Source: Spirogloea muscicola
Lineage: Eukaryota; Streptophyta; Zygnematophyceae; Spirogloeales; Spirogloeaceae
NCBI GenBank assembly: GCA_009602725.1
Contig: WELB01000079.1
Location: forward strand, 92,422 to 156,421
DNA: 64,000 nucleotides
Reading direction: 5' to 3'
Position 1 is the stretch's first letter. The number at the start of each line of letters is the position of its first letter. The translations under genes were made by a program, and so were the position numbers. The notes beneath the pieces are model-generated. The model did no database searches. It was given only the letters and a program-made list of their open reading frames with translations, and had not been told where the DNA came from. Below are positions 3,075 to 54,375 of this stretch, piece after piece.

Positions 3075-3505
3075 GCAAGGAGCGGAAGTATGCAGATCAC
3101 CCCCCAGGCGACGAATTCCCGGCCCTTGCCATCGACGTCCACGGGGCTTATCGGCCAATTCTTTTAGGCTGGCTTTTCGCAGCCCTTGCCCCCATTGGGA
3201 GTACCACTTCTTCTATCACTTCTTCTAGCGGTCACTTGCGTTCGCGGTCCACTTGCGCGCAGGCAGAGCTTTGGCGGCGGCCTCCGGCTTCCGTCAGGGC
3301 GACGTCTTTCCCCCGGCTAGCTACTCCGACTTGCATCTCCTGCCTAGAGGTTACTGAGCGTTCTCTGGCTGACGTCTTCGTCCTAGTGCAAAGGCATGGA
3401 CTGTAGTGTAGTTCTTTTCCGGCTCCTCTTCCTTTGGCTTTGGATATTGTCCATTCTTTTTGGGCTGGCTTTGCCAGCCACTCTTCTCTATGGGCGAGCA
3501 CATTC
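3075..3505 (+). mobile_element. Mosaic of LINE fragments: endonuclease piece, hairpin, tail, hairpin 3' UTR
   Basis: Four blocks in order. First (3085-3160), KERKYADHPPGDEF then ALAIDVHGAY. Second (3160-3225), a hairpin module with GGCTGGCTTTTCGCAGCCC and CCCATTGGGAGTACCACT. Third (3228-3355), a near-exact repeat of the end of the previous copy. Fourth (3356-3505), its full 3' UTR with GGATATTGTCC, GGGCTGGCTTTGCCAGCC and TATGGGCGAGCACATTCT. Blocks 3 and 4 define the complete 3' end of family B. Confidence 0.8.
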
Positions 3506-3639
3506 TATCGGCTGGCTGGATCTCCTCCAGCGGCTTGCCCGGCAGGCCATCGGGCGGCGGCGGCCATTGGGGAAAAGATTTCGTGTATTTGAAACAAACG
3601 AAGGCCAGCCGGGCAGGAAAATTTCGTGTATTTGAAACA
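3506..3639 (+). mobile_element. LINE fragment followed by two TTTGAAACAAAC repeats
   Basis: GWLDLLQRLARQAIGRRR (about 3510-3565) matches the segment after the VDVHG block of family B. Then TTTCGTGTATTTGAAACAAA occurs twice (about 3583 and 3628). The same motif recurs at 18205-18240 and 32408-32435; at 3628 and at the 18 kb copy it lies next to the family A 3' end, so it probably belongs to a LINE 3' terminus. Confidence 0.6.
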
Positions 3640-6110
3640 AACATAGGCGAATGGCCAAGTACAAAGGCAAGCAAGCACATCTATATATCTACATAACCTA
3701 CAGCAGGTTGACCCGCTCAAAATCCACGGGTCAAAACATGAAGGTCGCTAACCGATGCATGAATACTAGATGTCAGGTACGAAGCCCTTCTGTCACCAAC
3801 TAGAGCTCGCCCAGCTTTCTGATGCAAGGCATTAGCCTGAGCTCGCTGCAAACAGGCCGAAACTCGACGTCGCAAGAACGACAAATATGCAGCTGGCAAG
3901 CCCATTACAGCCGGAAACACATCTGCACGTTGTGTGTAGCCTAGATTGGCAATGGCTTGGAGGAGGGTGTGAAATCGAGGACCCAGACAGCCATAGATGT
4001 CGATTGCCGCTGGCAGGAGCTGGTCGCATCGAGGGTAGTCGGAGTAGTACTGCATCTTCCTTTGTTCTGCGATGCCCACTGCGTGACCAGCGATGTGTGT
4101 TGACGCTGGACCTTTATACGCCTCAGTGACAACCACGTCGACCAGGGCCCGTGGTCCTCCACCAGGTTGTACGCCCACAATGTCAAGTGTGCGGCGATGA
4201 TGACGTCCCTGTGCGTCCGTGGTGATGGGCATGATGTTGTTGACTTCCACGACCGCACGGTAGCCGGCGTCGCGCATCAAGCCCGCGAGGGCATCGCGAA
4301 GGAGGTTGTGGATGCCCACCACTTCTGGTCCAGTGGAACATCTCAGCATGTGAGTGGCGAGCTCAGCACCCTCTGCACGGAAGCCACACTCGCACTGGCG
4401 CACCCCAATCAGGCAGTTGGGTGGGAGGCCGAGGAAGAGTTGAAGCGACGTCCGAAAGGCCTCGGAGCTGATGCTGAAGGCGTTGGCGACGGCGTGAGAG
4501 GTGATCCAATCCGTGGCACCAGGTGTGGCTAGAGAAGTAAGTCTTGCCAGGCTCCTTGGATTGTTCTCAATCTCTGGCAGCCTCCTCAACCTTCTGCGAC
4601 GCTCGTCTTCCACTGCCGTAACCAGCCTGGATTGTGCCCCTCTATCAGAAGCTTGGGCGAGGGCGGAGAATGGCGTGAGTAGGGGTTGGAGAGAGGGGAA
4701 TGCGCCGATGGCTGAGTCGCGGATGATCCTCAGGTCCTCTTGGAAGGGGAAGGGGCCTTCCTCCACATTGCGTACAGGGTCGTGGAGGCAGGGGAAGCGC
4801 GTGGGGAGCATAGAGGCGATCTGGTGCCAGCAGCCCAGGAAGGCTGCTTGCGCCGTCTGCTGCAACGACCGGCAGCCAAGGCCGCCCATGCGGGTGGGGA
4901 GGGAGGCCTGAAGGGAAGCTGAATCTGAGGGGAAAGATGAAGAATGTAGTAGGGATGCCAGGGACTGCAGAAGGGAGTCGTCATATTCCTTGTAGAGGTC
5001 CACCACCATGCCCAATGGGGCGACTGTCCGTTGCAAATAGCCAGCCCGTTGGCCGATGCAGCGCGTGAGGATGGCCAACGCCAGCTGTGTGTCCCCCAGG
5101 AGGGGAAGGGAAGGGAGGGGGGCGAGGTGTTTATGGAGGCGGTCCCGCAAGTCCACCGCCACGTGAGCTGGTGTACCGAAGGGGACCTTGAGGATGGCCA
5201 GCCCATTGGCAGGGGTCTGACAGCCGTGGGGGAGCTGGAGGTTGGAGGGGAGACCGCGTGGGGACCAGGCCACACTCTTGGACGGGCAAACCCGCAGGCC
5301 CATCAGGTCCAATTCGCGAACAAGCAAAGGGTAAGCCGCCATGACTTCAGCTGGAGGTCCAATAATGTGTGTCATCCGCGTAGGAAGGGAAGAGGAGGTC
5401 TGGGTGTTGGCTCTGGGTGCGCCGAATAGCCCGGCAGTGTGCCAAGGCAAACAGGATTGGGCTAAGGGGGTTCCCCTGGCGTGTGCCAGAAGATGACCAC
5501 AGCGTCTTCCACGACTCTCCGGCTTGCCACAGCAGCCGCCCTGGGCGGCCATAGGCCATGAGGAAAAAGGGTATAAGGGATGGGAAGTGGTCGCGCAGCT
5601 CCTCCATGATGACGCTGCGCTCCACTGTGTTAAAGGCGTTACTGATATCCAGCCCAAGGACCATCATTGAAGGGTCCACGTCAAGAGCAGCGCGGATGCC
5701 GTGAACGAGGGCCTCCGCCCCGCAGGACATGCCAGCTCCGAATTGGTGGGGCGACAGATGGATGGTCAGCTGGGGCTTCAGCACACTGCACACGGCCTTT
5801 GATACCAGCCGCATGACAACCTCCGTCATCGCAATTGGTCTCACACCGCCTGTTGGCTTCGCAAGGGCTAGCAGGGGGCTGGAGTTCAAGGCGTCGGCAA
5901 TGCGTGGTGGAATGGTAGCCCTGGCGATGTGCCGGCAGGTGGACAGGAAGAGGGAGAAGCTCCTCTCATCCCCATCGAGGAAGAGGTCCTGTAAGTGCTC
6001 AAAGAGCCATCCAGAAGGGCCTCCAGACACCATCCGGGGGGCTTTGGCCAGGGCCACACGGAGCGCCTCTCTATTTAATCTTGTTATTCTGCCTCAGTAG
6101 CCTCATGCAT
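3640..6110 (-). mobile_element. LINE family A copy with reverse transcriptase, CCHC finger and restriction-like endonuclease
   Basis: Largest mobile element in the window. The 3' end is a UTR of about 75 bases without a poly-A run, ending GTGCTTGCCTTTGTACTT. The coding part (separate entry) starts inside the RT domain; upstream of 6110 all frames are closed and no N-terminal domain follows, so the copy is 5'-truncated. RT plus a C-terminal endonuclease and no visible AP-endonuclease suits the early-branching R2/R4/NeSL-type LINEs. I saw no obvious target-site duplication, and no rDNA at the insertion site. Confidence 0.85.
3717..6100 (-). pseudogene. LINE polyprotein: RT, CCHC and restriction-like endonuclease, one frameshift
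   Basis: Two overlapping frames carry the protein. The upstream frame (6057-5347) has the RT blocks KPTGGVRPIAMTEVVMRLVS, FGAGMSCGAEALVHGIRAAL, the motif A block LGLDISNAFNTVERS, the motif B block GTRQGNPLSPILFALA and the motif C catalytic YADD near 5380. The frame then shifts, and the downstream frame (to 3717) carries the RT thumb, a CECGF...H-x3-C finger (about residues 415-436 of that frame) and an endonuclease domain: RRTLDIVG, then ALVDVVVTEA, then the K-x2-YY block before AAIDIYG. It ends SDLHVLTRGF. In the family, RT primes reverse transcription at a nick made by the endonuclease. The frameshift and missing 5' end make this copy inactive. Confidence 0.85.
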
Positions 6111-6144
6111 GACTACGTCTCTCTGGGGTGTTGTGGAGGGGGGT

Positions 6145-6710
6145 GGAGTTGTCGCAAGAGAGAGAAGGCGCGCGGGGCGCATGAATTGAAAGGGAGGCCA
6201 ATTCAAGCCAATACATTGTTCAGGCAGAGTCGAGTGCAGACTAAACAATGCTACATAATACGGAGACCTAATCTAAGGTACCTAAGATGACATTAGTACC
6301 CACGGGTGAGCACAAACAAATCTGACAAGCTAACTTGGGGAGCTGGAGTAACTTGGGGCGCAAGAGAGCCTCCGTGGCGTCGTTGGTAGTAGCCAGGGGG
6401 TCAGGGCGAAGGGCCTGAGCAGCCCGGGAAAGTTCTCCTGCCCTGCCAAAGCGTCTTGCCCGCGCTAGATTGCCAGCTGTGGACTGTTGAGAGGGCTGGT
6501 TGGCTGAACCATTGCGCGCCCGCCGCTGCGAGAGCACGACCCGAGCAGCTGCCGCACGCTGCTGAGCCAACTCCTCCCACTTTCCACTTGTAAAAGCAGC
6601 TAGTCTATCCTGGAAAGTCTTGCGGCCTCCGACACCGAAGGAGGGAAGATGGCCAAGAACAAGCTTGGGAAAGAGGATGTATAAGGCCCAGGCCGCCTCG
6701 TCCATGGAGT
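6145..6710 (-). mobile_element. Internally deleted LINE: N-terminal piece joined to tail
   Basis: Minus strand, 6705 to about 6350, encodes a segment with KTFQDRLAAFTSGKWEELAQ and GELSRAAQALRPDP, which resembles the region just upstream of RT in this kind of LINE polyprotein. It then runs, with a frame change, into the C-terminal end LSDLFVLTRGY (stop at 6292), so the RT and most of the endonuclease are missing. The 3' UTR ends with GGCCTCCCTTTCAATTCATG and GCGCCCCGCGCGCC (6165-6225), identifying the owner of the GCGCGC module. Confidence 0.7.
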
Positions 6711-6744
6711 CCGCTTCGATTCGTGCGAGGTACGGCGTAAGAAC

Positions 6745-6995
6745 CTTGGTGCACTCACGACGTGCCCACCCTGCCGATGCGGCCTCCGGGTCTCGGCGGA
6801 GTGCCTCCTTCCCTGCCTCGAGCTACTCGGACCTGATGTTGCTCACTCGCGGGTACTGAGCTTCCCTAGTATGTTGTCGTGATTGGTAGAGTAGAGGAGT
6901 CCTTCCTCGGCTTCTCATTCTTCGGCTTTGGACATTGTCCATTCTTTTTGGGCTGGCTTTGCCAGCCCCTCTTTCTTTATGGGCGAGCCTTCTTC
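6745..6995 (+). mobile_element. LINE tail with complete hairpin 3' UTR
   Basis: The coding end SASFPASSYSDLMLLTRGY stops at 6859. About 60 bases later come GGACATTGTCC, TTTTTGGGCTGGCTTTGCCAGC and TATGGGCGAGCC. This gives the order stop codon, palindrome, hairpin, GGGCGAGCC end in uninterrupted form. The upstream part (before about 6745) is unrelated to this subfamily. Confidence 0.8.
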
Positions 6996-7004
6996 TGCCG
7001 ATGG

Positions 7005-7734: not shown

Positions 7735-7960
7735 TTTAAGGAGAGAGAAGGCGCGCGGTGCGCATGAAATTAAAGCGAGGCCAATTCAAGCCATTACATT
7801 GTTCAGGCAGAAAATGCAGAAAGTGCAAAGAATGCAGCGCAAAGAATGTGGCTACATGAAAAGACGCCCTATACTAGGAGGGCCGGAGGTGCCACAGAGA
7901 AAGCGGCTGCTGAAATGAAAGAATCGGCTGTGAAATGCCAGCCAGATGCAGCCAGCCAGC
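7735..7960 (-). mobile_element. LINE 3' modules (GCGCGC type and GGCTGTGAAATGCCAGCC type)
   Basis: 7740-7800 repeats the GGCGCGCGG..GCGCATGAA and GGCCAATTCAAGCC block of 6165-6225. 7860-7960 holds GCGGCTGCTGAAAT and GGCTGTGAAATGCCAGCC, which recur at 25890-25960. The two belong to different LINE 3' ends lying side by side. Confidence 0.65.
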
Positions 7961-8160: not shown

Positions 8161-8475
8161 GAAGGAACGAACAAACGATGTGAGATGGCGCTAGTATGCC
8201 CGGCCGACCACGACGGCGCGCGTCGACCAAGAATGACAAGGCCCAAACTAGTTGGGAAAGCCTGTATCCTGCACCCGGCCAGCCTGACAGAAGAAGTGCT
8301 CGCCCATAGAGGAAGTGCTTGCTGAATTCTCAGAGCCGGAGCCCGGAGCCCGGACTGCCCCACCGCCGAGCTTGCTTGTCAGGAAGCCACAAGGACGCGC
8401 CCGAGGCCGAGACGCTGCGGCGACGCAGGCGAGCTGCGGCACGCTCGCCGTGGTTGGCCTCCAGAGGCGGCGGCC
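8161..8475. other. Upstream region of the oxidoreductase, with a partial hairpin module
   Basis: Repeats GGAACGAACAAACGAT (8162) from 2499, then unrelated sequence, then a GCTCGCCCATAGAGGAAGTG remnant at 8298-8320. The 150 bases before the ATG are GC-rich without a clear TATA box. Confidence 0.4.
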
Positions 8476-9738
8476 ATGGCGGCGGCCACGGAGCCGTCGG
8501 CGTCGGCGTCGCCGCCGCCGGTGCGCTTCGGCGTCCTCGGGTGCGCCAGGGTTGCCCGCAAGGTGGTGCGCGCCATGCACAAGGCGTCCGGCGTGGAGCC
8601 CCGCGCCGTGGGCAGCCGATCGCTGGCCAAAGCGCGCGAGTTCGCGGCCGAGGCGGGCCTGGCGACGGCGTACGGGAGCTACCAGGAGGTCCTGGACGAC
8701 CCGGACGTGGACGCGGTGTACGTGCCGCTGCCGACGGGCCTGCACCGCGAGTGGGTGGTCAAGGCCGCGGCGGCGGTCAAGCACGTCCTGCTGGAGAAGC
8801 CGCCGGCGCCAGACGCCGCGGAGCTGGAGGAGATGCTTGCGGCGTGCGCCGAGGCCGGCGTGCAGCTCATGGACGGCACCATGTGGATGCACAACCCGCG
8901 CGCCGCCGCCATGGCGCGGCACCTCGACGACCGGTCCGCCTTCGGCCGGCCCAGCCGCGTGAATTCCTCGCTCTCCTTCTGGGCTGCGGACGAGTTCCTG
9001 GCCACCAACATCCGGTGCAAGCCCGGCCTCGATGGGCTCGGGTGCCTTGGCGACGTCGGGTGGTACTGCATCCGCGCCGCACTGTGGGCCTTCGCCTTCG
9101 ACATGCCCCACCGCGTGGCTGCTCATCCTGACCCGAAGCTGAACGCCGCTGGAGTTGTCATGAGCTGTGGAGCCACTCTTACCTGGCCAGACGGCCGCGT
9201 GGCGGTCTTTGACTGCGGCTTTGATGCGCCATTTCGACAAAACCTTGAGATTGTCGGCACTAGAGCAGTCCTGGAGCTGAAGGACTTCATCATCCCCGTC
9301 AGGGAGGACGAATGCTCGTTCACAATAACCAGCGCAGTGGCTCTCAAAGACTTTTCCACATGGTAGTGGATATGCTGAGATGCTGCTTCTGCACGTAGAC
9401 TTGCTCTGTCTCCGGCCGCTCAAGCTAGACTAGGAAAATTGCTTTACTGCTGTGTTGCTCATGCTTTGTGTTGGTAGTGACCTTGATGAGGTGGTGTTGC
9501 CTGCAGGATCTCGAAGGAGGAGGTCAGTCACAAGGTACAGCTGAGGGTACCTCAAGAGGCGCTGATGCTCGAGAAGTTTGCTTCTCTTGTGGCGGGCATC
9601 CAATCGGGCCGCAGCAAAGCGGACCCACATTGGCCATCAATTGCTCGCAAAACGCAAGCAGTGCTCAGCGCAGTGGACCAGTCCATCAGAGGCGGCAGCT
9701 GTATGATACAACTGAATAGTGCACACGAGTCGGCCTGA
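8476..9738 (+). CDS. Gfo/Idh/MocA-family NAD(P)-dependent oxidoreductase
   Basis: Two exons, 8476-9362 and 9507-9738, joined by a 144-base GT-AG intron, give about 372 residues, normal for the plant family typified by Arabidopsis At4g09670. The N-terminal Rossmann fold starts with FGVLGCARVARKVVRAMH (dinucleotide-binding glycine motif, about residues 18-35). LLEKPPAP (about 110) is the family's conserved EKP motif, whose lysine takes part in catalysis. MDGTMWMHNPR and GLDGLGCLGDVGWY follow. The second exon supplies the SIARKTQAVLSAVDQS helix near the C-terminus. The family oxidises or reduces sugars or diols; the substrate cannot be told from sequence. The ATG at 8476 sits in a CCATGG context and begins just before the fold. 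No transit peptide is obvious. Confidence 0.9.
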
Positions 9739-17824: not shown

Positions 17825-18385
17825 GCTTCACTTGATTCCACATAGCTGTTGGCAATCATATTAGTGGAACTCGAGGAGTTCCTGCTTCGCCAATGACCTT
17901 GCACGCTCTTATCATTCTTTGGCTTGGTCCTCATGGTCCAGCCCTTCAACAATCTCTAGATTTTGAGTTAAGCCCTGGAGAGACCAAGCTCTTCTTGAAG
18001 AAGAGGGGGCTGTGAAGAGCCAGTCCAGGCAAAACTATACAAAGTCCAAAGGGCCGAGAGGCTCTGAAACCACACGGCAATGCAAGTGAAAGCAGCTGTC
18101 TCTAAGAAGTTCTGAAGGGGGCGAGGGCTGGGAAGCAAGGAGCTCATCCGAGGGACAACTTTCGTGCATTTGAATAATCGAAGGCCAAAGTGGCCACTCA
18201 TCTTGAAGGGAAAAGATTCGTGTATTTTGAAACAAATGAAGGCTAAACGAAATGGCCAAGTACAAAGAAGGGGGCGAGGGGCCAGCCGAGAAGAGGAACG
18301 TGCGCGCCCATAGAGAAGAGGGGCTGGCAAAGCCAGCCCAAAAAGAATGGACAACGTCCAAAGCCAACGAAAAGAGAAGCCGAGG
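17825..18385 (-). mobile_element. LINE 3'-end remnants upstream of CDC20
   Basis: 18005-18070 holds a diverged hairpin (GGGGCTGTGAAGAGCCAGTCC-like) with TACAAAGTCC after it. 18150-18262 holds two TTCGTG(C/T)ATTTTGAA-like repeats and GGCCAAGTACAAAG (family A 3' terminus). 18298-18380 holds a well-kept module: CGCCCATAGAGAAGAGG, GGCTGGCAAAGCCAGCC, GGACAACGTCC. The first 150 bases after 17824 are likely SMT1 3' UTR. Confidence 0.7.
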
Positions 18386-25884: not shown

Positions 25885-26420
25885 CCATTCATAATGGGAA
25901 GAAAGCGGCTGCTGATATTGAAGAGTCGGCTGTGAAATGCCAGCCAGATGCATACAGGTGTTCATGACGGAGCCAAAGAAAGAAGTGGCACTCCCAAAGG
26001 GGGCACTGGGCGCTCGGTGGCTTGAGCTACTTAACCAGCTCGCCCGCCACGCAATCGCCCGTCGCTTCCATGGTGAACCGGTAGACTTTCCTGCAGCCGG
26101 GTCGCTGGCGCAAGTGTATCGCATGCGCTTGGCCGTCTCGCTGCAGAGGTCCATGGCCCGTGCGCTACACCTTCGTGCCGGGAGAGCCCTCGCTGCTGCC
26201 TCTGGCTCTGTCCAGGGGACCCACTTCCAGGACCCTAGCCTCTCTGATTTGCGGCTGCTTAGCAGGGGTTACTGAGTAATTTGTAGCTGCTTTCTTTCTT
26301 TGTGTGCTTTGGTTTCTTAGCGCTTCCTCTGGCTTCCTCTGGCCCCCTTCTCGTTCTTTGTTCATTCGTTTTTGGGCTGGCTTGTCCAGCCCCTATCCTC
26401 AATGGGCGAGCCCTTTCTTC
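25885..26420 (+). mobile_element. LINE tail (LLSRGY subfamily) with hairpin 3' UTR
   Basis: 25890-25965 holds GCGGCTGCTGATATTGAAG and GGCTGTGAAATGCCAGCC (module of another subfamily). The coding part, about 26005-26273, has LGARWLELLNQLARHAIARR, AAGSLAQVYRMRLAVSLQRS, LRAGRALAAASGS and LSDLRLLSRGY. The 3' UTR runs TGAGTAATTTGTAGCTGC, GGCCCCCTTCTCGTTC, GGGCTGGCTTGTCCAGCCCC, CAATGGGCGAGCCC (to about 26412). This is the best complete example of this subfamily's tail. Confidence 0.85.
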
Positions 26421-28042: not shown

Positions 28043-31000
28043 TTAGCCCATAGAGTAGGAGGCTGTCGGGAGATTGATCACAGTGCTCTTCACTTTGGTC
28101 ATCATGTGAATGGAGTTGGTGATGCCCTGCGAGCCAATGCCGCTGTCTCGCAGACCCTGGCCAGCAGCCGCAGCAACACATTGAGGGTCAGACCTGCCGA
28201 CTTGCTACACTGGCATGCAAGACCCTGCCACTCCCATCGCCACTCAATTGTTGCTAATCAAAGTCCAGTTCTTTTTGAACAGATGTTTCAGTTGTGCTGC
28301 CGATGCTGCATTACAAGGACTCACCTGGAAAGGGAAGTGGTCGGGACCCCGCGCCGGTGCAGAGTTGATCTGCACTGTTCCTGTCTCCATAGCGTCGCTG
28401 ACCAGGATGGCCTTGTTGATGTCCCGCGTGAATACGCAGCCCTGCAGTGGGCCGCCGAGTGTAAGTCATCATGCTCAACAACCCTAAACCCTAAGACGCC
28501 TGCCAGAGTACTGATTTCACTTAACCTACACTCGAACCACCATAGATAAGCAGGACCTTTATCCCATCTGCAGCGGCAAAAGTCCACAACTACAACCACA
28601 TCCACGTGCACATCCACATGACAACGTGGGAGGACGACCCTGAGTTGCAGCAATATAGCAAATGGTGCAGTTCGTGAGAGTAGGGGTTTGAGGAGAAAGC
28701 CAGGTCAAGTGCGTTGACCATGCTACAGGGGCCTCAATTGAGCACCTGAAGAGCGTAGTTGTTGGCATTGCAGTGGTGAATGCCCTCCTCGACCTTGGAA
28801 ATGCGGATGATGGGCATCACAGGCCCAAAAGGCTCCTCCCATGCCAGCCGCATGTCAGGCCGCACGTTGTCAATCACCAACGGCCAGATCAGATTGTGTT
28901 CCCGCTTGTACTCCTGCATCAGTGACCATGGCATAAGCAACCGGCTCTTGTTGCAACTTCAGAGCTGAGACTCCCAAATATGCCAAGGAGGCCGCACCTC
29001 AGTGAGGGCTTAAAGTACTTGCCTGGCAGAAGGTGGCACCTTTCTCCTTGCAGTCCATGACGAGACCCTCTATGAAGTTTGCTGACGATTCGGAGATGAC
29101 AGGCGTGATGTCGCAGTCATCCTCAGGGCGCCCCACCTTGAGCTTGGCCACCTTGGTGTTGACCTTCTCCACGAGCTCATCAGCCACCGACTGCATGACG
29201 AGCACCACCTTGATAGCGGTACACCGCTGCCCACTGCACAAACGACCCACAGTTTACCATCAGCAGGTGTCAATGACCTGGCGGGATACAGTTCGACAAT
29301 GATCACAGCATTGTCTGGAGCAAAAAAGACATGAGCGTCCATATTTGCAATACAAAATTGAAGGAGGCCAACTTCAGGGAGGACAGAGAGGGTGAGAGGA
29401 CCTGTAGGAGAAGCCGCCCTTGATGATGTTCGCGGCGGCAAGGTCAAGGTCTGCGTCCTCGAGCACGATGCAAGCATCCTTGCCTCCAAGCTCCATCTGC
29501 AGCGGGATCATATTGGCCTTCCTCGATATGGCAATGCCAGTGTCTCCTCCAGTGAAGCTGCCCCCAAGCGACTCCCCTCACTAATCAGTACATCTTATGC
29601 AAGGAGTAGTATGCTGTCAATTTTGTCAGTCTTTGAGAAATTTAGCTGCCATTTAGCAGCTGCTAGCTGCTCCATAGAGAGCAGATGTATGCTTCATCAA
29701 AAGCGAGACACTAAGAAGGGGCCGAGCTCAAGACCTGATGCAGTTGATGCTCGGATGCTGCGTCAGGAAGTCACCAATTTCGGAGCCCTTGCCAGTGACA
29801 GCGCCAATGAGGCCCTTGGGGAAACCAGCCTTGATGAAGCAGTGCACCATGTGGAGAGCAGACACAGCTCCCTACAGGCATACATCAATTCTGCTTAGCT
29901 TCTGCGGCCTTAGCAAATCCCAAATGAACTGCAAGTCACTGAGTAAGTCGTAGGCACTCCTCGTGCAACGGTGACCTCTTATATCCTCTGATTTTTCCTT
30001 TGTAAAATACTCCACATTCTAAATCTTAATTGCCATCAGAAGGAAAGGGCTCGCCCATAGAGAAGAGGGGCTGGCAAAGCCAGCCCAAAAAGAATGGACA
30101 ATGTCCAAAGCCAAAGAAAGAGATGCCGATCAGAACCACAACGGTCCCTAGTATTATCAGCACACTTGATGTTTGTCAAAGTTGCAGAATTTCAAGGATG
30201 ATGTTGTGTATTGTGCACCTGGGTTGGTGGCTTCAGGACAACAGCATTCCCGGAGATGAGAGCAGGAGCAAGCTTGGACACAGCAAGGTTGACTGGATAA
30301 TTGAAGGGAGGAATGCAGAGAACCACACCCAAAGGAATCTGCAATACACCAGCACCTGCGATGCTCAGGACGTGGACACCAGGTAGTGTCACTGGGTTGC
30401 ATGATTCGCGAATCAAGATAGGCCACACCCTCACCAGGCGAAAACAGGGGTTAATATGGCTTCACGAGCTACCAGCACCTACGAGACGGTAAAGTACAAT
30501 GGCTTACCTTCGATGAAAGACAGAGCTTAGTCCGGTCATTGCCAGGGAAGCTGTCACCTGTGAGAAACTTGTTCTCGGATAGAATGCGCACCCCCTCCTC
30601 TGCACAATATGATATCAGGTCACCAGACCTGACAACCTGCAAGGTGATAAGTCTGATATTAACAGCAGTGCAAATGACAACATTGGAGAAAGATAGAGCT
30701 CCATGAGCTCTTGAAACAGGGAAGATGTCCTTTTCACAGAAGCTCACAGGTATCTCTCCCAAATAGTTACATTCTTTGAAGAAGTACAACAAGATATGTC
30801 ACGTCAAATACAAGTGCTGGATTCAAGCAGGCATTTACTTAGCGGTATGATTGTAAGTAACATGCTTCCCATGTATGTGCAAGATTTACAGACCTCAGTC
30901 ACCGAGTCCTTGGCGGGCTTTGCCACCTCCTTGACAAGGCAATCTGCGATTGGGCCTTTATTCTCCTTGAGTAGAGCGGCAGCCTTGTGCAGCAGCTCAG

Positions 31001-35600: not shown

Positions 35601-38180
35601 AACAGGCTAGCTGACAGTCCTCGAAGGTGGGCAAGCTGATTACTGTGCCCTGAATCTGTAAGAGATATTTTGAGTGCTCCCAAGTGCTCACATTTCACCG
35701 TGAACAATGACGCAAACTTGTGGCTACATAGCTCTGTCAATTGCTGGTGCAGCAACTAAGCGTGCCTTCGAAAGAGACCCATACTCAAAGTCACTGGCAA
35801 CAGGTATAGAATAAGCAAACAGAGAGAAAGTCCACGAACCGAAAGGCCTTGAGGTGCTCAGCGAAGGCGGCGGCAGCCTCCGTCTGGTCCTGCTCCTTGC
35901 GGAAGAGCGGGTGGAGGCCCTCACGGGCAAGGCCCTTGGAGCGGGCGACGGACTCCGCAGACGGCGCTGGCCGCGTCTTCGAGTAGAGCCGGAAGGCCTT
36001 GGCTGCAACCTTCTGGAGAATCGCCAGCGCGCCAATGCTAGCATGCAGGTCGCGCACGTGCTCCATGCCGGCGTCCAGCTCGCGCTGCGGGAGGCGGCCG
36101 TACACCGTCTCTCCACGGCTCGCCGCGGCGTCCGCGGCGGCCAGCACCGCACCGCCGGCACTGGCGGCAACCTCGTCCTCGGCAGGCGCCGATCGCAGGC
36201 CCTTTGACAGAAAGAGGTGGAGGTCGAGCAGGAACGGGAGCTCGTCCCGCGTAAGCAAGGAGTAGGCTGTCCCGAGGCGGCCGGCACGCGCGGCGCGCCC
36301 CACGCGGTGCACAAACAGCTTGGGCCGCGGCGGGAAGTCGTAGTTGATGACGTTGTCGAGCAGCGGGATGTCGATGCCGCGCGCCGCGACGTCCGTGACG
36401 ACCAGGAGCGCCGTGCGCCGTGCCCGGAACTTCGCAATGTGGATCTTGCGAGCCGCCTGGTCCATGGACCCGTAGACGACCGACACGGCCACGCCCTCCG
36501 CACCGAGGAGCTCGGCGACGTACTCTGCGTGATACTTGGTGGACACGAACACGATCGTCTGCTGCCCCGCCGGCACCACCTCGTGCACTAGGTGCAGCAG
36601 CGCCGCCGTGCGCTCGTCCCGTCGCACTGTGAAAAACGCCAGCTACAAACACACGGGCCGCATGCAAGCATGTCAGTGCTACTACGGTTGCCACGCGGAT
36701 CTTCTCAATTGCAAGGATGCGTCGCACGGGCCACCTTGAGTGGCACTGGCGTGGCCATGGGGGTTTGCGAGAGGCCGGACCTGCAGGTCAGGGCTGATCT
36801 TGGTCTCGGTGTCGAGGCGCACGAGCTGCGGGTCGCGGAGGCCCGCGCGCGCAAACTCGGCCAGCAGGGCGGGCAGCGTAGCGGAGAAGAGCGACGTCTG
36901 GCGCGACTCGGGCATGCGCGCCAGGATCTGCCGCAGCTGCTCCGCAAACCCCATCTCAAACAGCCGGTCCGCTTCGTCAAACACCACGTACTCCACGCTG
37001 GCCGCCGCCGCAGGTGCGCCCCCACCAGCCGGCCGTCAGAACTGGCCCGCAAGTCAGCGCCGTCAGGCTGCAGGCATCTGAGTCCTGGTCGGCACAGTGC
37101 AGCTACTTCCGCTACAGGCCCGACAGTTAGAGGTAACTCCTAAACCACAGTTACGAGTTTTTAGCGCTAAGTACAGGGTTTAGGGGTTCGAATATCAAAT
37201 TGCAAACAAGAGCTAATGTCTGAGATTAGCGAAGTAGCTTGGCGGCGAACTAGGGGTGGGGCCGGACCTGCGGAGGGTCATGTCCTCGACCTCGGAGAGG
37301 TGGTGCATGAGCCGGCCGGGCGTGGCGACGATGATGTCGGGGCTGCCCGCCAGCGCCTCGAACTGCGCCTCCATGCTGTCGCCGCCCACCAGCACGACCG
37401 CGCGGAGGTCGGTGTACCGCCCCAGCTCCCGCACGAACTTGAAGGTCTGCCAGCCCAGAGTGTCAGCGGTGCCCCCCCGTCAGAGCCGCAGGCGACGTTG
37501 ACGACGACGAGGGCAGAAGGGGTTTAAGGCGACGAGGGCAGAAGGGGATTAAGCCCACCCAGAAAGGATGGAGTGTGTATTGAGCGACGGAGGGCCTGAG
37601 TGGATAAGTACAAAGGCAAGCACATGACAGGTGTACATCGCCTGCAGCTAAGCTGACACGCTCAATAACCAAGGAAGGGGTTTAAGCCCACAAGCGCTTG
37701 ACAGCTGTACATGGCCTGCTGCTAAGCCGACTCGCTCAGTAAGCCAGGAAGGGGGTTTAAGGCCACCCAGAGAGACCACCAGCACCTGCAGCGCGAGCTC
37801 GCGCGTGGGCGAGAGGACGACGGCGCGGGCGCCAGGGCCGGGCGCGTGGGCGCGCAGGCGCTGCAGGAGGGGCAGCAGGAAGGCGGCGGTCTTGCCGGAG
37901 CCGGTGCGGGCCATGGCCACGACGTCGGCACCGGCCAGGAGGCGCGGCATGGCGCGCCTCTGCACGGGCGTCGGCACGCGGTACCCCTTACGCCGCACGC
38001 CGCGCAGCAGCTCCGGCGCCAGGCCCAGCGCCTCGAAGCCCATGCCGCCGCCGCCGGCCTTGGCTTTGCGCCGCGCCGCGCCGCCGCCGCCGCCGAAGTC
38101 CGCCACGCCGCCCGCACCTCCCGCCGCCGCCGCCGCCGGGAACGGCGCCGGCGGGCCTCCCTCGGCTCCGCTGTCGTCCT
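32696..38180 (-). CDS. DBP10: DBP10/DDX54-type DEAD-box RNA helicase (plant RH29)
   Basis: Thirteen exons on the minus strand: first visible exon about 38180-37786, then 37268-37446, 36781-36997, 35840-36642, 35494-35551, 35215-35340, 34835-34913, 34477-34544, 34121-34185, 33911-33992, 33627-33683, 33290-33407, 32696-33156; junctions are in phase. Helicase motifs: [12 protein letters not shown] (Walker A), [57 protein letters not shown] and [10 protein letters not shown]. The C-terminal part ([59 protein letters not shown]) marks the DBP10 branch and ends in an RGG-rich tail. The family acts in the nucleolus in 60S ribosome assembly. The start codon is unresolved: upstream there is a GCC run with an N at 38183 and then a MITE. 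The start of the 68-base exon at 34544 has an in-phase alternative. Confidence 0.93.
37600..37760 (-). mobile_element. Two LINE family A-like 3' ends inside helicase intron 1
   Basis: On the minus strand 37672-37605 reads TTATTGAGCGTGTCAGC, then a 3' UTR ending GTGCTTGCCTTTGTACTT, the family A terminus, with at most two residual codons of coding sequence. 37740-37695 repeats the TTACTGAGCGAGTCGGC start and GTACAGCTGTC. Both lie among small repeats of AAGGGGTTTAAGCCCAC. Confidence 0.7.
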
Positions 38181-42504: not shown

Positions 42505-42845
42505 TTCAGGCCTGCTATTCTTTTCGGGCTGGCTTTCCACAGCCCTCGCCCCCCTTGGATCGGCTTATTTGCACTTGTTTCTGTTGCCGTTCCCTTGTGA
42601 CCTTCTCCATTCACGTTGCTCTAGCCTTTGACAGCATAAGTCTTCCGATTTAAGGCAGTGGCTGTGGAAGGCCAGCCCAAAAAGAGTGGACATAGCCATT
42701 GCCCCCAACGCAAGAGCTATTTTGTTATCGAAGGAGCCTCTCTCGTTAGCGCTTCCCCTGGCCCCCTTCACGTACTTTCTTCATTCTTTTTTGGGCTGGC
42801 TTTTCCAGCCCTTATCCTCAATGGGCGAGCACTTTCTTCTCTCGT
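42505..42845 (+). mobile_element. LINE hairpin modules in both orientations
   Basis: Sense module at 42515-42570 (TTCGGGCTGGCTTTCCACAG then CCCTCGCCCCCCTTGG). Antisense module at 42645-42700 (GGCTGTGGAAGGCCAGCCC, AGAGTGGACATAGCC). Sense module with full order at 42760-42845 (CCCTTCACGTAC, TTTTTTGGGCTGGCTTTTCC, CAATGGGCGAGCAC). The entry strand is that of two of the three modules. Confidence 0.75.
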
Positions 42846-53929: not shown

Positions 53930-54070
53930 AAGAAAGGGCTCGCCCATAGAGAAGAGGCGCTGGCAAAGAAGAAGAAGTGGCACTCCCAATGGGGGCAAGG
54001 GCTGCAAAAAGCCAGCCCAAAAAGAATGGACAATGTCCAAAGCTAAAGAAAGAGATGCCGAAGAAGGACT
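53930..54070 (-). mobile_element. LINE hairpin modules
   Basis: GGGCTCGCCCATAGAGAAG (53937), AAGTGGCACTCCCAATGGGG then GCTGCAAAAAGCCAGCCC (53973-54018), and AATGGACAATGTCCAAAGC. Two subtypes are joined. Confidence 0.75.
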
Positions 54071-54200: not shown

Positions 54201-54375
54201 AGTCCCCAGGCATGGACTGTGGTGTAGTTCTTCTTCTCTATGCGAGCCCTCTCTTCTTTCTATGGGCGAGCCCGTTCTTCTTTTTCGGCACCTCTTTCTT
54301 TGGCTTGGGATATTGTCCATTCTTTTTGGGCTGGCTTTGCCAGCCACTCTTCTCTATGGGCGAGCACTTCTTCCT
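54200..54375 (+). mobile_element. Family B 3' UTR with hairpin
   Basis: CATGGACTGTGGTGTAGTTC, GGGATATTGTCC, TTTTTGGGCTGGCTTTGCC and TATGGGCGAGCAC repeat the 3' UTR at 3390-3505. CGAGCCC / GGGCGAGCCC pieces just before it indicate an older module. Confidence 0.8.

Follow-up and report, generated by a model that had tools for sequence, protein, structure and literature searches.

Positions 6860-6995 of the window (the whole 64-kb stretch of DNA that was analysed) form, in full, the 3′ UTR of an RLE-like LINE in a photosynthetic eukaryote, and the last ~70 nt would probably serve as a template signal with a protein-bound hairpin. These last ~70 nt run from TTGTCCATTC through a T-run, a hairpin with a GGCUG/CAGCC stem, a CU-rich spacer and GGGCGAGC to the end UUCUUC. 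The tail has a fixed 3′ end and a hairpin that is shared between families and conserved in its arms, and the copies display a T-rich target preference and an early break-off. By analogy with known elements, the hairpin appears best read as the recognition hairpin of a stringent-type LINE, with a stem fixed in sequence and a variable loop.

The insertion at 6779-6995 and the LINE that received it

A 5′-truncated LINE copy of 217 bp lies on the forward strand at 6779-6995 and is 100% identical to the 3′ end of the full-length copy L016 of the same family (W). It holds the last 26 codons of the ORF (...SDLMLLTRGY*), the stop codon and the complete 136-nt 3′ UTR, which ends in GGGCGAGCCTTCTTC. The 8-bp direct repeat TGCCGATG, read from the sequence and by script, is found on both sides of the copy (6772-6779, where the last base is ambiguous with the element, and 6996-7003), and therefore the copy arrived by retrotransposition. 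A preliminary description of this DNA had proposed a fixed order of parts after the stop codon, and this order is confirmed on the forward strand: the TGA of the ORF at 6857-6859 is followed by the GGACATTGTCC block at 6930-6940 (its GTCCATTC part is kept as sequence and covariation gives the pairing no support), by a T-run, by the hairpin GGGCTGGC-TTT-GCCAGCCC at 6950-6968, which the MFE structure of the 3′ UTR contains, and by the conserved ATGGGCGAGCC block at 6979-6989, between the hairpin and the 3′ end. The element terminates with TTCTTC at 6990-6995, after which the sequence differs from copy to copy (40 copies compared).

The W copy sits within the pre-RT part of an older minus-strand LINE of another family (v). 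This pre-RT part (6271-6822, 40% identical to W protein 435-565) also holds the tail of a third family. The reverse transcriptase part of the v element is at 5350-6093 (PF00078, E 3.4e-16; 49% identical to W), and the rest of the RT, the linker, the knuckle-like motif and the endonuclease part are at 3720-5663 (42% identical to W, frame broken near 5370), a piece that alone gave no Pfam match; its 3′ UTR at 3617-3716, on the same strand, is without the GGCTG hairpin. The tail inside the v element belongs to an RLE-like LINE family (ix) and covers 6163-6295 on the minus strand, with its stop TAA at 6293-6295; the segment 6158-6228, which includes part of this tail, matches 7741-7811. Host gene pieces are also seen in the window, namely a GFO/IDH/MocA oxidoreductase at 8326-9363 (+) and a helicase C-terminal domain at 35794-36642 (-).

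The full-length element and its protein

The genome searched comprises 153 Mb in 471 contigs and has 68 matches to PF00504 (light-harvesting protein genes). At least 40 genomic copies, the window's own included, are identical over the whole 136-nt query; as 40 copies were scored among 859 candidates, each being required to match the 136 nt, this number is a floor, and shorter copies are missed. In all 40 copies the flanks diverge straight after the last base of the query. An exact 40-mer covering the hairpin and the tail occurs 117 times in the genome, and 0 times when read backwards. Three copies (L016, L020 and L035) are full length (~4.3 kb); their open frame has 1390 codons and their 3′ UTR is identical, and open frames of at least 1386 codons were present in 6 matches at 99-100% identity. 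The comparison with intact LINEs, which the preliminary description had suggested, is thus favourable, since these full-length elements carry the hairpin.

The single ORF of W encodes two N-terminal zinc-finger-like motifs (recognized by eye), a reverse transcriptase (PF00078, RVT_1, E 2.4e-13) and a putative C-terminal endonuclease signature. With a six-row profile the best solved relatives were R2 proteins (E 1.6e-6; chains 9nl2 and 9dou), LINE-1 ORF2 being next at E 0.029; a search with the W protein as single sequence gave no solved structure at E<=0.01. In the available text of PMC5678591, the restriction-like endonucleases of LINEs are described by a PD...D plus KX2KY pattern and a CCHC knuckle of the form CX2-3CX7-8HX4C. 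Read by eye, the endonuclease signature is RRxDLV...DVV in W, ii and vii (other families of the genome), where the P of PD is replaced, and the KX2KY-type motif is KEKKY in W, KEIKY in ii, KLHKY in vii and KERKY in iii, with KMQYY in v and KERHY in ix. No profile match was obtained for the restriction-like endonuclease region. The C-terminal knuckle-like motif of W and ii is CX1CX12HX3C and does not fit the spacing published in that text, because of which we use the label RLE-like and name no clade. Going by its protein sequence, W is an RLE-like LINE with an R2-like RT. Like R2 and other RLE LINEs, as far as these are described in the accessible parts of PMC5678591 and PMC4640811, it has a single ORF with zinc-finger-like motifs, an RT, a knuckle-like motif and a KX2KY-type signature read by eye, and its 3′ UTR is without a poly(A) end. 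It differs from RLE LINEs in the knuckle (CX1CX12HX3C instead of the form given in PMC5678591), and from R2 and RLE LINEs in being dispersed at C/TTT-like sites instead of restricted to rDNA or some other single gene. The site-specific insertion of the R2 clade into 28S rDNA was not seen for the 40 copies, which lie on 35 contigs with unlike flanks; W is therefore not R2 in the strict sense. It may be noted that the genome contains at least 150 RVT_1 matches, many of which score far above the W and v elements, with several open frames of >1,200 codons, and which represent other RT groups; W copies and the RT of the window are absent among the 150 best PF00078 matches.

Hairpin conservation across LINE families

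The C-terminal 241 residues of W, used as a query, matched at least 155 sequences with identities of 69-100%, 150 of the 21,657 first-look candidates having been scored; from these matches the 3′ UTRs of 20 relatives were taken, chosen by protein identity (69-96%) alone. The module is in place in 17 of these 20, including L069, which has lost 5 nt from the 3′ arm. Of the remaining three, L061 has a nested tail and then the start of its own module, which runs off the end of the stretch, and L057 and L066 are interrupted before the position of the module. The hairpin core also occurs in family vii, whose LINE (in L042) is 51% identical to W over 182 residues and has GGCTGGCATTTCACAGCC ~30 nt from its end. 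The proposal that several LINE subfamilies have this 3′ end in common therefore holds. A tree of eight C-termini places W, ii, iii and a fourth piece together (100/99), with vii as their nearest neighbour (90/89) and ix and v outside this group (the root is at the midpoint, for drawing only). The 3′ ends of the related families v (38% identical to W) and ix (45%) are without the hairpin. The case that the preliminary description had counted against its reading, intact LINEs with a 3′ UTR lacking the hairpin, thus holds in part, for v and ix, and full-length W is not among them. The stem-loop near the 3′ end that characterizes stringent-type tails is accordingly common within and between families, with v and ix as exceptions.

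Over 18 3′ UTRs, a set that contains near-duplicates, the hairpin arms are the best-conserved part, with mean pairwise identities of 0.91 and 0.86, as compared with 0.74 for the loop, 0.82 for GGACATTGTCCATTC, 0.78 for the T-run, 0.68 for the spacer, 0.83 for ATGGGCGAGCC and 0.41-0.47 upstream of the module. The loop varies in letters and in length (UUU, UUG, UUCU, UUGUU and others). These values support a hairpin whose stem is kept as sequence and whose loop varies. One may ask if young and closely related families alone make the arms look conserved, as the W copies are almost identical and near-duplicates occur among the 18 3′ UTRs; yet the arms stay at 0.86-0.91 where the upstream 3′ UTR has fallen to 0.41-0.47, and vii, at 51% protein identity, keeps the same core as W though its flanks can hardly be aligned with those of other families, so that we give this explanation a very slight probability.

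Covariation and folding

The covariation tests used an alignment of 29 rows, made up of W, 11 tails selected by protein, the iv-type tail that is nested in L061, and 16 modules of the window picked out with the GGCTG/CAGCC pattern. Six of the 17 protein-selected modules were excluded, namely L054, L055, L058, L063 and L068 (near-duplicates or old copies) and L069 (damaged 3′ arm), and 33 rows were brought down to 29 by taking out two that lay on the wrong strand, another whose spacer was altered and another whose upstream part was unrelated. A second, model-fitted set was taken from the best 150 of 198 matches, which gave 108 distinct copies. All five antisense variants of the hairpin quoted in the preliminary description are present in the window. 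Its statement that the GGCTG/CAGCC stem is nearly always kept agrees with the core being paired in 29 of 29 representatives, but 16 of the 29 had been picked by that very core and L069 had been left out, so the count has to be read with this selection. Its further statement, that the stem changes partly with compensation, did not stand: two-sided change was seen in 0 of the 5 core pairs in the 29 rows and in none among the 108 copies. In the 29 rows the five pairs are GC in 29, GC in 29, CG in 28 with one UG, UA in 28 with one UG, and GC in 28 with one GU; in the three one-sided changes a wobble pair remains each time, a suggestive pattern in numbers too small to carry weight. Of the 29 rows, 10 have lost the outermost pair, and in 3 both of its sides have changed (GC to UG).

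For the hairpin and palindrome together, the share of paired cells in the 29 rows was reached in only 19 of 500 shuffles, and four covariation measures were at the level of shuffles (reached by 163 to 349 of 500). For the 108 copies the covariation score was 0.037 against 0.042 for shuffles. The covariance-model test over genomic copies, which had been put forward as a check, therefore gave no significant covariation and did no better than shuffles, in a set that holds few independent changes. As the core stem is without compensatory change, the conservation of the arms could reflect sequence recognition, use at the DNA level or descent. For the palindrome GGACATTGTCC, 73% of cells pair in the 29 rows and 81% in a set of 24 rows; as a hairpin it was rejected, since 256 of 500 shuffles were as high on the 24 rows and no covariation was found. 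An outer helix between TTGTCCATT and AATGGGCGA, suggested by one fold, was also rejected: the two can pair (mean duplex -6.5, as against -3.7 when the letters are shuffled; 95 of the 108 modules could be parsed), but cognate partners at -6.50 do not differ from swapped ones at -6.49, 139 of 300 swaps being as low, and no two-sided change was found in this helix.

The stem of the hairpin folds in the 3′ UTR of W (whole-UTR z -2.85) and in the consensus. Whole-3′-UTR folds of six tails gave z from -2.99 to +1.02 and are not consistently stabler than shuffles, the value of +1.02 belonging to the hairpin-bearing tail of vii. In some folds the start of the 3′ UTR pairs with GGGCGAGC. The hairpin of W lies 27 nt from a fixed, non-poly(A) 3′ end, at a distance that is similar in other module-bearing tails, and this position would also suit a signal for 3′-end formation or stability of the LINE RNA, of the terminator or histone stem-loop kind, instead of a handle for the RT. 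Against this, Rfam 15 gave 0 matches in the window at the curated threshold and, in five tails, only RyhB at chance level (20.3 bits, with the cut-off at 55; E 0.63). The histone stem-loop is unlike this hairpin in distance and sequence. We regard such a 3′-end signal as unlikely on the whole; the two roles are not mutually exclusive, and recognition of the hairpin by the RT, argued from analogous elements, is a plausible one.

Module numbers and 5′ ends

The window was said to hold at least 25 modules, and the covariance model finds 34 at E<=0.01. Modules of the iii type are located at 753-821 (-, 84.2 bits), 2552-2620 (-, 86.2 bits), 3439-3506 (+, 84.5 bits), 30041-30109 (-, 91 bits) and 54305-54373 (+, 83.2 bits), and those of the ii type at 2232-2301 (-, loop TTGTT, 76 bits), 26350-26419 (+, 77 bits) and 42769-42838 (+, 77.3 bits). 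A further module is at 18294-18362 (-, 85.9 bits), and one of the vii type, a family ~51% identical to W in protein whose LINE is found in L042, is at 25899-25969 (-, 41.6 bits). The module at 53972-54041 (-, 76.5 bits; nest to 54066) looks chimeric because an iv-type tail is apparently set in the loop of a iii-type hairpin, as read from the sequence. Positions 54229-54283 contain tandem ultra-short tail pieces (CTATG...CGAGCC...TTC) with no hairpin. In the genome, GGGCTGGN5CCAGCC occurs 7,729 times forward and 7,713 times in reverse (1 and 0 for the backwards pattern) and GGCTGGN7CAGCC 13,549 and 13,519 times (19 and 30 for the control); forward and reverse matches are partly the same places, and the counts refer to the patterns, so that a single match need not be a tail. 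A regular expression extended into the flanks gave 94 matches in 315 kb against 0 on the reversed sequence; another, flank-anchored one was discarded as too loose, with 66 matches in control sequence.

For the comparison of 5′ ends, 26 of the 40 W copies were used, those free of an adjoining run of N. Their unbroken 3′ piece measures 141 to 4,304 bp; it is at most 300 bp in 18 of the 26 and ~4.3 kb in three. Among the 18, L034 and L042 resume past a gap or insertion to >0.7 kb and L025 to 285 bp. In the ii and v families as well the start points are spread and most matches end near one place. Because the 5′ starts are scattered and the 3′ end is fixed, the tail is a remnant and not a unit with a 5′ end of its own, and the earlier idea that the 3′ end spreads as an independent unit is not supported, the copies being LINE insertions with scattered truncation points and a fixed 3′ end. 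The same evidence bears on the tail as a SINE-like unit that spreads alone. Although the hairpin is very frequent, with 21,278 forward matches of the two patterns in 153 Mb, no fixed 5′ end exists in W, ii or v, and ARAGORN found no tRNA gene in the window (a degenerate tRNA-like head is still possible); we therefore rejected this reading, which seems hardly probable to us.

In the other 14 of the 40 copies (L009, L011-L014, L023, L024, L032, L037, L038, L040, L043, L045 and L046) the 5′ end coincides exactly with the edge of a run of N, which in eleven cases lies 202-238 nt from the 3′ end. These ends look like assembly breaks, because the abutment is exact and L009 has more W sequence beyond the gap, and they were set aside for the statement on 5′ ends. 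The hairpin was also considered as a stop for the RT; the exact counts of 150, 139 and 117 (3′ end; with the 3′ arm; with both arms) do not fall sharply at the stem base and led us to reject this, the counts being weak since mutation and later insertions are mixed in.

Target sites and nested tails

The first base past the element is T in 36 of the 40 W copies. Target duplications of at least 4 bases without overlap were found in 5 of 26 copies against 0.5 expected from shuffled partners, several of them reading C/TTT, in a count that rests on an ungapped script and has misplaced breakpoints in 4 of the 26 (L022, L025, L034 and L042). In 22 of the 40 copies the 3′ flank lies within another LINE 3′ region, in 21 of them in the same orientation. 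For comparison, such a region was hit by 214 of 2,000 positions drawn at random from the window and by 33 of 734 drawn from 3-6 kb upstream of W copies; the LINE families under study also supplied the library of LINE 3′ regions for these flank tests. In L015, L030 and L038 the 3′ flank starts in the loop of another such hairpin. Of the window positions reading C/TTT or C/TAT, 169 of 750 fall in a LINE 3′ region (143 in the same orientation), and of those reading TTC/TTT 40 of 67, all in the same orientation. Because TTC/TTT positions give the same rate as the W copies, a short C/TTT-like preference, for which tails are rich in sites, suffices to account for the nested tails, and one need not suppose that the hairpin itself is targeted. 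Neighbouring window modules within 300 bp are in the same orientation in 9 cases and in opposite orientation in 6, so a head-to-tail order is not strict.

The landing of new copies in old tails might itself be thought to make tails alike, the conservation being then one of DNA, and the 22 nested flanks, with three in a hairpin loop, would be in line with it. But landing in an old tail leaves the source element unchanged, and the short target preference already explains the landing, for which reasons we find conservation at the DNA level scarcely credible. It may also be noted that in L042 (oriented, 5201-6136) a W copy, whose ends overlap by 4 bp, encloses a vii element of ~637 bp, and vii was thus active after W; another W copy, in L025, contains ~29 nt of a vii tail.

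Returning to the hairpin as a recognition signal, the protein of the element would most likely grip the hairpin stem of the template RNA, and the U-rich 3′ end would be placed on the nicked target, where target-primed reverse transcription would start. The target would be cut next to C/TTT. As many copies stop after 0.15-0.3 kb, the tail is what always remains.

Comparison with known systems

Binding of the hairpin by the RT and its use for initiation are inferred from the work on R2, UnaL2 and ZfL2. In the available text of Hayashi et al. (PMC4176376), the stem of two stringent-type zebrafish LINEs is recognised generally and the loop specifically, and the pattern of a frozen stem with a varying loop seen here is the one described there. 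The likeness with eel UnaL2 and zebrafish ZfL2-1/ZfL2-2 lies in a short stem-loop near the 3′ end, whose recognition in those elements has been shown by assay (PMC4176376, same part of the text). The zebrafish elements are L2-clade LINEs, whereas W is RLE-like and its stem, known from sequence, is near-invariant across many families. With plant L1 and a monocot SINE (Ohshima 2013, PMC3747384, as far as its available text goes) the likeness is a 3′ hairpin common to related retroposons. A conserved CGAG is found there 3′ of the stem, as CGAG is found here within GGGCGAGC; in plant L1, however, the stem varies with compensation and the loop is kept, which is the reverse of the W-type hairpin. 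The accessible texts of the literature searched, which did not include Repbase, contained no description of this hairpin that we could find, and the family itself may already be catalogued.

A wider reading would be a guild of RLE-like families with one sequence-fixed stem as a common template key and family-specific loops. Families may then copy each other's tails, the tail DNA would offer C/TTT landing sites, and recognition together with targeting would build the nested tails and the >21,000 hairpin sites; this is a tentative picture that we rate as rather doubtful. The experiments on 3′ recognition in the available texts of the cited work were on animal LINEs, and here a large natural collection is provided in a photosynthetic lineage, with intact elements. 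The frozen stem with a varying loop is the pattern that the bipartite stem/loop model predicts, here in an R2-like element, and the collection could help to find out which template features such a protein recognizes and why many copies end within 0.3 kb.
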